Assembly (NCBI GenBank): GCA_022819855.1
Contig: JAJEGN010000014.1
Span: 126,501-190,500, forward strand
Direction of reading: 5' to 3'
DNA: 64,000 nt
From: Gammaproteobacteria bacterium
GTDB lineage: Bacteria > Pseudomonadota > Gammaproteobacteria > Steroidobacterales > Rariloculaceae
A model generated the notes under the pieces. The model saw nothing but the letters and a program-made list of their open reading frames with translations, was not told the origin of the DNA and did no database searches. A program made the position numbers and the translations under genes. Positions within the stretch are counted from its first letter, which is position 1. Each line of letters begins with the position of its first letter. Positions 5,244-11,017 of this stretch are shown here, in pieces.

Positions 5244-5320
5244 CGGGGCATGGCGCAGTCTGGTAGCGCATCTGCTTTGGGAGCAGAGGGTCGGCGGTTC
5301 AAATCCGTCTGCCCCGACCA
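5244..5320 (+). tRNA. tRNA-Pro(UGG)
   Basis: A 77-nt cloverleaf. The acceptor stem CGGGGCA pairs with TGCCCCG, followed by discriminator A and an encoded CCA. The anticodon loop TTTGGGA gives UGG. It is the first gene of a four-tRNA cluster. Confidence 0.97.
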
Positions 5321-5360
5321 GTTTCAATGAATTCGACAGGAGGTAATCACCACTACGAGA

Positions 5361-5674
5361 GCGCCCGTAGCTCAACCGGATAGAGCATCGGCCTTTGAGT
5401 GAGGAGCCTGTATCGGGAAACCGAACCGATGCAGTGGACCGCACTGTAACGGGGAACCCTTAACAGATCACGCTGATGGCAACCCCGTGGAAACCTTCGG
5501 TCGGCCCGCATGGCGCCGACGGTTTGTTGGAAGGGATCCGTAGAGACTATACGTGCGGCGCCTGAGACGGCGAAGAGATAGTCCAGACCACAAACCCGCC
5601 AATGTGGGGCCGCGAAAGCGGTAGTTGGTAAGCTAAGCCGAGGGTTGCAGGTTCGAGTCCTGCCGGGCGCGCCA
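5361..5674 (+). tRNA. tRNA-Arg(UCU), interrupted by a group I intron
   Basis: The exons are 5361-5395 and 5633-5674. Joined, they give a normal 77-nt tRNA: acceptor GCGCCCG/CGGGCGC, D-arm GCTC...GAGC, anticodon stem TCGGC/GCCGA, loop CTTCTAA with anticodon TCT, T-arm GCAGG-TTCGAGT-CCTGC, and encoded CCA. Only this junction gives a 7-nt loop and an intron ending in G. The intron therefore falls after the first anticodon base (U^CU), equivalent to the 34/35 position of the cyanobacterial tRNA-Leu(UAA) intron. Without splicing the tRNA cannot fold. Confidence 0.93.
5396..5632 (+). ncRNA. group I intron (IC3-like), 237 nt, no ORF
   Basis: P1 can form between exon CCTT and the internal guide GAGG at 5401-5404, giving the required U-G pair at the 5' splice site. 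P7 is a 6-bp pairing of GACTAT (5545-5550) with ATAGTC (5578-5583). The flanking AGAGACTATACG and AAGAGATAGTCC are the hallmark core of short bacterial tRNA introns such as those of Azoarcus and Agrobacterium. P8-like CGCC/GGCG lies between them. GNRA-capped hairpins occur at 5413-5424 (TCGG-GAAA-CCGA) and 5610-5621 (CCGC-GAAA-GCGG, probably P9). The last base is G (omega-G). No homing endonuclease is encoded. Self-splicing is inferred. Confidence 0.92.
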
Positions 5675-5706
5675 CAAATTGATTACAATTTCATCCGCAC
5701 AACGAT

Positions 5707-5783
5707 GGTGGGCGTAGCTCAGTTGGTAGAGCCCCGGATTGTGGATCCGGTCGTCGTGGGTTCGAATCCCATCGTCCACCCCA
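5707..5783 (+). tRNA. tRNA-His(GUG)
   Basis: The cloverleaf has acceptor GTGGGCG/CGTCCAC, anticodon loop TTGTGGA (GUG), discriminator C and encoded CCA. The extra 5' G (G-1) typical of tRNA-His is present and included. Confidence 0.97.
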
Positions 5784-5803
5784 CTTCACACGCAGCAGCG
5801 CAC

Positions 5804-5880
5804 GGGCCGTTAGCTCAATCAGGCAGAGCAGTGGACTCTTAATCCATTGGTTGTAGGTTCGATTCCTACACGGCCCACCA
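5804..5880 (+). tRNA. tRNA-Lys(CUU)
   Basis: The 77-nt cloverleaf has acceptor GGGCCGT/ACGGCCC, anticodon stem GTGGA/TCCAT, loop CTCTTAA (CUU), discriminator A and encoded CCA. It is the last gene of the cluster and borders the accessory region. Confidence 0.96.
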
Positions 5881-9532: not shown

Positions 9533-9787
9533 ATGGCTACCAGGACAACTCTCTTGTTGGATGACGAAGTGCGCACGGCGGCCAGGGAACTGGCTCTCCA
9601 ATACGGCTGTTCGGTGTCCGAAGCCATTCGCCGTGCCGTGCTGCGCCACCGCGACGCGACACTTGGCATTTCTCCGGGGCGGCGCAGAGCGAGGATGCGG
9701 GTCCTTGAGGAGTTGTTCGATCTTTTCGAGGGTCACGATGCCGAAGAGGAAATCCGTCGGCTCAAGGAACAGGATGAGGACTTCTGA
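9533..9787 (+). CDS. ribbon-helix-helix antitoxin (VapB-like)
   Basis: An 84-residue protein. The N-terminal MATRTTLLLDDEV strand followed by two helices (RTAARELALQYGCSVSEAIRRAV) matches a ribbon-helix-helix DNA-binding domain. The acidic C-terminus (EEEIRRLKEQDEDF) would wrap around the toxin. Its TGA stop abuts the ATG of the PIN-domain gene, so translation is coupled, as is typical of antitoxin-toxin pairs. It should neutralise the toxin and repress the operon with it. Confidence 0.85.
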   Translation: MATRTTLLLDDEVRTAARELALQYGCSVSEAIRRAVLRHRDATLGISPGRRRARMRVLEELFDLFEGHDAEEEIRRLKEQDEDF

Positions 9788-10183
9788 ATGCCGATACATC
9801 TGGATACCGATTTTCTGGTATACGCGTTGTCGGTAGCCGGGCCAGAGAGGCGGAAGCTGATAGAGATCTCGAATTCGGGCCAGTCGATCGAGATGAGCGC
9901 GATCGCGTGGTACGAATTCATGCGAGGGCCTCGTACTCCCCAGCAGATGGGCCGAGCGCGAGCTTTTTTTCAGCAAGACGGCATCATTCCTTTCTCGGAG
10001 TCCATCGCGGCGGAGGCAGCGGAGATGTTTCGACAGCTTGGGTCGCCTCGCCGGCGGGCTGCCGATGTGGCGATCGGCGTCACGGCCGTCGCCCGTGGAG
10101 CGACTCTACTCACCCGCAACGTCAGGGATTTCGCGGGAATCGCAGGGCTCGACGTCGCGGATCCGGAGGGGCGCTTGCGTTGA
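9788..10183 (+). CDS. PIN-domain ribonuclease toxin (VapC-like)
   Basis: A 131-residue PIN-domain protein that would cut RNA using Mg2+ or Mn2+. Acidic active-site residues are visible: Asp in HLDTDFLVYAL near the N-terminus, Glu in SAIAWYEFMRG, Asp in RRAADVAIGVTA, and the C-terminal TRNVRDFAGI. It starts directly after the stop of the antitoxin gene. All four acidic positions are present, so it looks intact. Confidence 0.88.
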   Translation: MPIHLDTDFLVYALSVAGPERRKLIEISNSGQSIEMSAIAWYEFMRGPRTPQQMGRARAFFQQDGIIPFSESIAAEAAEMFRQLGSPRRRAADVAIGVTAVARGATLLTRNVRDFAGIAGLDVADPEGRLR

Positions 10184-10230: not shown

Positions 10231-10611
10231 TCAGATACTCAGATGCAGCCGCATCGCCGCGTCGATCTCGTTCATGGTCCTTCGCGGCACGCGGCCCAAG
10301 CGACTCTTCAAGCGCTCAACGGCAATGGCGCGGATTTGTTCCGCCTGTGCTTTGGAGTCTTGCCGCAGACCGCACGGTCGGGCCGCGAGCCTGACCTGGA
10401 AGGGATACACGCGTCGAACGTTGCCGGTGACCGGCACGATCGTGACCACGCCCCGCCTTATCGCCCAAGCGCTCTCGTTGGCCGCGTTATTGCTGACGAC
10501 CACCGCCGGCCGCTCGAAAGCGGCCTCGGCGCCAATCGGATGAGCCAAATCGACCATCCATATGTCGCCCCGCCGAGGGCCACCGGGGAGTTCACTCCAC
10601 GATGCCGTCAT
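10231..10611 (-). CDS. MazF/PemK-family endoribonuclease toxin
   Basis: A 126-residue protein with the MazF signatures RRGDIWMVDL near the N-terminus, RPAVVVSNN, VTIVPVTGNV and the C-terminal LGRVPRRTMNEIDAAMRLHL. MazF toxins cut mRNA at short sequence motifs. The ATG at 10611 overlaps the antitoxin end by 20 nt. A longer frame upstream is open but is covered by the antitoxin gene, so it was not used. This pair converges on the VapBC-like pair, with only 47 nt between the two toxin stops. Confidence 0.88.
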   Translation of the reverse strand: MTASWSELPGGPRRGDIWMVDLAHPIGAEAAFERPAVVVSNNAANESAWAIRRGVVTIVPVTGNVRRVYPFQVRLAARPCGLRQDSKAQAEQIRAIAVERLKSRLGRVPRRTMNEIDAAMRLHLSI

Positions 10612-10810
10612 CTGCTGTCGCGTCCCAGTTCCTGGCGTCTTCTTCGGTCCATTCGGTCCAGGCCGACGCGTAGTCGTCGGCAAGTTGCGATGTGCGCAGT
10701 AGACGAAGCGCTGCCTGTATGACGCCTGATCGCGACTTGATGCCTTGCGAGCGCGCATAGGCGTCCACGAATCCGACTTCCTCGGACGGGAGGCTGATGC
10801 TGAGTTTCAT
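10592..10810 (-). CDS. antitoxin of the MazF-like toxin (ribbon-helix-helix)
   Basis: A 72-residue protein starting MKLSISLPSEEVGFVDAYAR. The layout of one strand plus two helices matches RHH antitoxins that partner MazF-like toxins. The acidic, Trp-rich tail (WTEWTEEDARNWDA) would contact the toxin. The gene overlaps the toxin start by 20 nt. The ATG at 10810 gives the classic RHH start; an alternative start 16 codons upstream would run into the probable operator. Confidence 0.8.
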   Translation of the reverse strand: MKLSISLPSEEVGFVDAYARSQGIKSRSGVIQAALRLLRTSQLADDYASAWTEWTEEDARNWDATADDGIVE

Positions 10811-10842
10811 AAGCGGGTGGTCGACGGTCTTAATTTGAATGC

Positions 10843-10855
10843 TACTAGGGTAGTA
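10843..10855 (-). promoter_or_regulatory. perfect inverted repeat upstream of the MazEF-like pair
   Basis: TACTA-GGG-TAGTA is a perfect palindrome with a 3-nt centre, 33 nt upstream of the antitoxin start. The position and symmetry fit autoregulation by the RHH antitoxin. Confidence 0.5.
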
Positions 10856-11017
10856 CATTTCCGGCTCTACGCCAACCGGCTCCGGGGCTTTGTCGGCCGT
10901 CCCGTTGCTCCTTCCTGCTGTGTCACCCTGAATTAAAGCTGGGCCAAGCTACCTGGAGTCAGCGCTGCCAGAATTTTGCATGGGACAATGGAGCGCCTTT
11001 GCAAACGGAATCTACGG

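Follow-up and report, generated by a model that had tools for sequence, protein, structure and literature searches.

A short group I intron between U34 and C35 of the only tRNA-Arg(UCU) found in a bacterial genome, and its family at that site

The window (the whole stretch of DNA that was analysed, 64,000 nucleotides in length) contains a cluster of four tRNA genes adjoining folD, and the same cluster is kept around both occupied and empty versions of the site described here. A default tRNA scan calls the Pro(UGG), His(GUG) and Lys(CUU) genes of the cluster and misses the Arg gene that lies between the first two. When introns are allowed, ARAGORN reads a tRNA-Arg(UCU) with a mature length of 77 nt and an intron of 237 nt after U34. 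The split gene runs from 5361 to 5674 in window coordinates, and the intron from 5396 to 5632, located exactly between U34 and C35. The same gene limits, insert length and insertion after the first anticodon base had been read from the sequence in the initial annotation, and ARAGORN returned all three. The features of the locus, all on the forward strand, are as follows.

5244–5880 (+): tRNA cluster Pro(UGG)-Arg(UCU)-His(GUG)-Lys(CUU), adjoining folD
5361–5395 (+): 5′ exon of tRNA-Arg(UCU), positions 1–34, ending U33 U34 (ARAGORN -i; identical to the intronless same-genus gene L054)
5396–5632 (+): group I intron, 237 nt, no notable ORF (longest stop-free stretch 46 aa), ending with omega-G at 5632
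5403–5408 (+): internal guide sequence GGAGCC, nearly invariant in the 19-sequence alignment
5408–5434 (+): P2 hairpin, 5408–5416 with 5426–5434; 9/9 pairs changed on both sides among relatives
5439–5444 (+): P3 5′ strand CCGCAC, partner GUGCGG at 5553–5558; 100% paired, double changes in 5/6 pairs
5449–5487 (+): P4/P5 domain (alignment and covariance-model fit)
5489–5539 (+): P6/P6a, with a loop of roughly 31 nt that is the site of a homing endonuclease gene in the relatives L038 and L040
5545–5550 (+): P7 5′ strand GACUAU (guanosine-binding helix), partner AUAGUC at 5578–5583; 6 bp, 100% paired
5553–5558 (+): P3 3′ strand GUGCGG (alignment and covariance-model fit)
5559–5572 (+): P8 hairpin, 100% paired, double changes in 2 pairs
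5578–5583 (+): P7 3′ strand AUAGUC (alignment and covariance-model fit)
5609–5622 (+): P9 hairpin with a GAAA cap; double changes in 4/4 tested pairs
5633–5674 (+): 3′ exon of tRNA-Arg(UCU), from C35 to the encoded CCA (ARAGORN -i and coordinates)

The core of the intron is a pseudoknot in which P7 crosses P3, accompanied by P4–P6 and P8; it is supported by covariation, by the fit of the window copy and by the two strands of P7, in which one UA-to-CG double change is seen among relatives. At the 5′ splice site the GAG of the guide sequence pairs with C32, U33 and U34, with C31 bulged and a U34·G wobble at the point of cleavage; this wobble is present in the window and invariant in 19/19 relatives. 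The first G of the guide is able to pair with C35, forming P10. The intron ends with G5632. The corresponding omega-G of the relatives provides no independent support, because the search pattern demanded it. The 6-bp P7, the P8, the GNRA-capped P9 and the terminal G originally noted are thus all present in the window.

The secondary structure was examined in an alignment of 19 diverse cores of the same type, each <80% identical to the window copy. Over P1–P9, 95.9% of the cells contain standard pairs, compared with 80.9% on shuffling. Double changes are found in 32 of the 53 pairs, with 150 double-change cells compared with 38 in shuffled alignments, and none of 500 shuffles scored as high; these pair counts exceed the number of independent events, since the relatives share ancestry. 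When the 3′ partners were slid by 1–3 columns as a control, pairing fell to 35–41%. A covariance model was built from the same 19 sequences, with the P7 pairs omitted and the window sequence not in the training set. It matches the window at 5388–5641 with 209.6 bits (E = 1.5e-62) and zero non-standard pairs, and this is its sole match on both strands of the 64 kb. A chance match is ruled out by this score. The minimum-energy fold of the intron has z = −2.4, which is weak evidence taken alone. The insert is a group I intron, and its assignment as such within tRNA-Arg(UCU) at U34/C35, first made from the letters, is borne out by the covariance model and the covariation.

The check originally suggested for that assignment, a match to the Rfam model Intron_gpI (RF00028), failed; nothing in the window is matched even at E ≤ 10, and the gathering cut-off of 50 bits is not reached. 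The same model also misses the relatives L033, L034, L036, L039, L040, L077, L102, L109 and L132, so that it finds 0/10 introns of the window type, the window's own being one of the ten. At the same tRNA site it finds the canonical introns of L115, L134, L184 and L201, and misses that of L088. The Rfam miss is therefore a limit of the model, given that nine relatives of the window type are missed and most canonical introns at the same site are found, and we rejected Intron_gpI as a decisive arbiter. The core probably differs from this model to a degree that hides the intron, and its tRNA with it, from standard annotation. A group I intron database of 2025 took Rfam's model as its starting point (PMC11835236), and would therefore tend to miss the window type.

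Two types of intron occupy the U34/C35 site, separated by motifs in the P4–P7 region. By motif, the window type is found at at least 118 loci, and a canonical type resembling group IC3 at at least 51, at least 41 of which are viral. The window-type model scores 106–121 bits on the canonical introns at this site. The group IC3 intron in the tRNA-Leu(UAA) of cyanobacteria and gammaproteobacteria shares the U34/35 position and the small size, and is matched by the window-type model at a lower score; it differs in its host tRNA, and the window intron, carried by tRNA-Arg(UCU), is not a member of that family. In P3–P6 the window type departs from the canonical IC3 core motifs (AAAUUCGG, GAGCCAAGC), as judged by an informal motif comparison only. 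The Azoarcus-type intron of tRNA-Ile(CAU) is likewise a group I intron in the anticodon loop, inserted after U36. The genome analysed here has a second group I intron of its own in tRNA-Ile(CAU) (L001 1453–1763, G000:C15, minus strand), in a gene that ARAGORN misnames Gln(CUG); it scores 29.6 bits with the window-type model vs 65.9 bits with Intron_gpI. The Agrobacterium-type intron of tRNA-Arg(CCU) also lies in an arginine tRNA and is also group I, but in the copies examined its insertion point is after position 36 (CCU^AA).

The site was searched at the DNA level in 58 related genomes. The intron is present at the same position in 13 of them (one broken by a contig end), and the exons are contiguous in about 38. 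Genome and viral collections were then scanned with the 3′-junction pattern GGTAMG^CTAA plus tRNA positions. At least 175 stretches matched, at least 164 of which can be read as split tRNA-Arg(UCU)-like genes with a 5′ half ending U33 U34. The site is occupied in at least eight bacterial phyla, Bacillota and Bacteroidota included, with hosts of 33–68% GC, and on phage contigs. The window-type model was also applied to 274 evenly drawn gammaproteobacterial genomes and matches in 47, ten of which (the window's genome included) exceed 150 bits; the twenty weaker match regions that were read include introns of tRNA-Leu(UAA) and tRNA-Arg(CCU), and tRNA-Arg(UCU) introns split by an endonuclease. Plasmids gave just tRNA exon matches and one 74-base match of 78% in Bradyrhizobium, and no close copy of the phage tRNA-Arg(UCU) intron was found in phage records.

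This range of hosts bears on the choice of tRNA. It had been proposed that the rarity of AGA relaxes selection against the intron. AGA is indeed rare here, the long ORFs of the window using it 39 times in 15,601 codons (2.5 per 1000, and 2.8% of Arg codons), but hosts spanning 33–68% GC, together with phages, argue that AGA need not be rare for the intron to be present. The site would be better accounted for by a site-specific endonuclease that acts on the conserved anticodon loop.

A candidate for such an endonuclease is encoded by relatives of the window intron. The P6 loop of L038 and L040 contains an ORF of about 139 aa that matches PF11645 (PDDEXK_5) with E = 8e-40, and with 35 other loci the ORF is found, whole or partial, at at least 37. 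A profile of nine of the P6-loop endonucleases has a sole match in the PDB, 2OST (E = 5.7e-6), the structure of I-Ssp6803I, and the D...QVK residues are invariant in 9/9 aligned endonucleases. Pairs of intact genes have dN/dS of 0.07–0.21 by a simple method (2/12 pairs were saturated and the estimates come from the rest), as would be expected for a functional protein; introns of Exiguobacterium and Lysinibacillus are among those with an intact gene. Introns of 365–690 nt with broken or missing frames (L067, L073, L076, L097, L171, L177 and L178) look like stages of decay. In the endonuclease tree most sequences group with others of their phylum, with 5 changes where the minimum possible is 4, and transfer thus looks mostly local. 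The tRNA-fMet intron of Synechocystis with I-Ssp6803I carries a PD-(D/E)XK enzyme of the same Pfam family, but lies in another tRNA, and its endonuclease is only distantly similar. One viral intron of the window type at the same site (L235 8832–9558) has an HNH endonuclease (PF13392) in the P2 region, not a PD-(D/E)XK gene in P6. In genome bin G029 an endonuclease-bearing tRNA-Arg(UCU) (C28:32677–33396) and an intronless one (C32:4250–4325) occur together, as either two gene copies or mixed strains.

The window copy has no PD-(D/E)XK gene, unlike an intron of the mobile I-Ssp6803I type, and its genome contains none. A search for a free-standing endonuclease of the same family in this genome found none, with G019 and G029 as positive controls; nothing at E ≤ 1e-10 came up when 299 genomes from the phylum were searched for the endonuclease, a result that carries little weight. 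The closest relative of the window intron is in G019, a genome of another genus; the identity is 96% on one side of its PF11645 endonuclease gene and 92% on the other. The intron of G020, which lacks the endonuclease gene as does that of the window, is 90% identical to the window intron. The genomes G001 and G002 belong to the same genus as the window; their folD proteins are 94% and 88% identical and the flanking DNA is 85–88% identical, yet their tRNA-Arg(UCU) genes are contiguous. The intronless gene of G001 is identical to the window at 77/77 exon bases, and its empty site is scar-free. The simplest reading is that the window intron is a recent horizontal arrival and belongs to the G019/G020 intron lineage. 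Since the nearest relative, in another genus, carries PF11645, the window copy probably came from a different genus by transfer, with the endonuclease lost later or already absent.

The same distribution might be explained by multiple losses within the genus, in G001 and G002, instead of a gain in the window lineage. More broadly, the intron might have descended vertically from an ancestor of the family or order with many losses, its likeness to G019 and G020 reflecting slow evolution. Most relatives do have the intron within this tRNA cluster, and its distribution within the order is patchy, with the 13 occupied and about 38 unoccupied genomes given above. We nevertheless consider vertical descent unlikely. 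The intron is 90–96% identical to those of G019 and G020 even though the folD protein of G020 is only 41% identical and most of the flanking DNA cannot be aligned, and the closer genomes G001 and G002 have no intron.

The genome is 97.7% complete, and just one of the 53 tRNAs read from it is a tRNA-Arg(UCU); the other arginine tRNAs have the anticodons ACG, CCG, CCU and UCG. As this is the sole tRNA-Arg(UCU) found, and AGA is rare but used, splicing is probably needed. Group I introns splice by two transesterification steps, the first of which is started by guanosine. After transcription the window intron would fold into its P3/P7 core, and the guide sequence would pair with C32–U33–U34. An exogenous guanosine held in P7 would then cleave after U34, and U34 would attack after G5632, so that U34 is ligated to C35 and the product is an ordinary AGA-reading tRNA. 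The intron is one member of a family specific to U34/C35, the mobile members of which have a PD-(D/E)XK gene in the P6 loop.

It might be argued that the intron has decayed, that the split tRNA is a pseudogene and that another tRNA reads AGA. The endonuclease has gone from the intron, and the support for splicing is drawn from sequence. However, both halves of the tRNA are intact and identical to the intronless gene of the sister genome, every pair of the ribozyme core is unbroken, and there is no second UCU tRNA among the 53 in the assembly; decay is thus highly improbable, and the intron is real and probably functional. Excision by a protein endonuclease in the bulge-helix-bulge manner of archaea and eukarya, to which the position of the insert in the anticodon loop might point, can be set aside, given the 34/35 site in place of the usual 37/38, a host that looks gammaproteobacterial from its relatives, and a complete group I core that covaries and includes the P3/P7 pseudoknot, a splice-site U·G and a terminal G. 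We are confident that the insert is a short, tRNA-type group I ribozyme, predicted to splice itself out of the sole tRNA-Arg(UCU); it is a member of a site-specific family, and this copy has no endonuclease and was probably transferred. The anatomy, the covariation, the family, the empty sites and the endonuclease-bearing relatives come directly from the computations, and from these we infer splicing in the cell, endonuclease specificity and the direction of transfer.

The host tRNA is not new. Flood et al. (2016, PMC4853749) reported a putative group I intron in the tRNA-Arg-TCT of Thiomargarita nelsonii Bud S10 and cite another in BOGUAY (MacGregor et al. 2013); both hosts are Beggiatoaceae. 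The length of the Bud S10 gene, 324 bases, implies an intron of about 247 nt, the secondary structure of which was left undetermined in that paper (PMC4853749). These introns have the same host tRNA and are of the same kind as that of the window, a likeness based on their description and not on splice position or structure. The papers found, in a search that most subscription papers lay outside, do not describe the structure, endonuclease or breadth of the tRNA-Arg(UCU) introns, and the breadth of the family, the endonuclease cycle and the invisibility to Rfam seem little described. On balance we lean towards an undescribed mobile group I family that crosses phyla and homes to U34/C35 of tRNA-Arg(UCU), carried by a PD-(D/E)XK gene in P6 with repeated loss of the endonuclease, missed by Rfam and shared with phages.

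The only AGA-reading tRNA found here looks essential, yet its gene escapes both default tRNA scans and Rfam, with the consequence that a tRNA-Arg(UCU) may be reported missing when it is merely split. The authors of tRNAscan-SE 2.0 describe the same problem for the fMet and Ile2 tRNAs (PMC8450103). With empty, endonuclease-bearing, decaying and endonuclease-free states, the site provides a natural series on which the homing cycle could be tested, in bacteria as well as in phages.

Group I introns are present on phage contigs in tRNA-Arg(UCU), tRNA-Leu(UAA) and apparently other tRNAs, in some cases several per contig. A review of 2014 described phage introns as known in protein genes only (PMC3984707), and the phage tRNA-gene introns extend beyond that picture. 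The examples are as follows.

L187, 3803–4106: tRNA intron on a 4.9-kb phage contig that also bears a terminase gene
L184, 12957–13868: phage contig tRNA intron
L198, 3526–5058: phage contig tRNA intron
L197, 848–2797: phage contig tRNA intron
L205: phage contig tRNA intron
L274, 720–1010 (LR756501.1): tRNA-Leu(UAA) split after U34 in a 735-kb phage
L276, 553–914: tRNA-Leu(UAA) split after U34 in Agrobacterium phage Atu_ph07
L275, 602–887: tRNA-Arg(CCU) of Microcoleus phage My-WqHQDG, split near position 36

Among the last three, tRNA annotation exists only for that of the Microcoleus phage. A match to abiF RNA (RF03085) lies immediately beside an intron-bearing phage tRNA-Arg (L201 779–815). 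Elsewhere in the window, two toxin–antitoxin-like gene pairs are located at 9533–10183 and 10231–10858; one comprises a PIN-domain protein and a small upstream ORF, the other a PemK/MazF-like protein and a marginal ribbon-helix-helix match.
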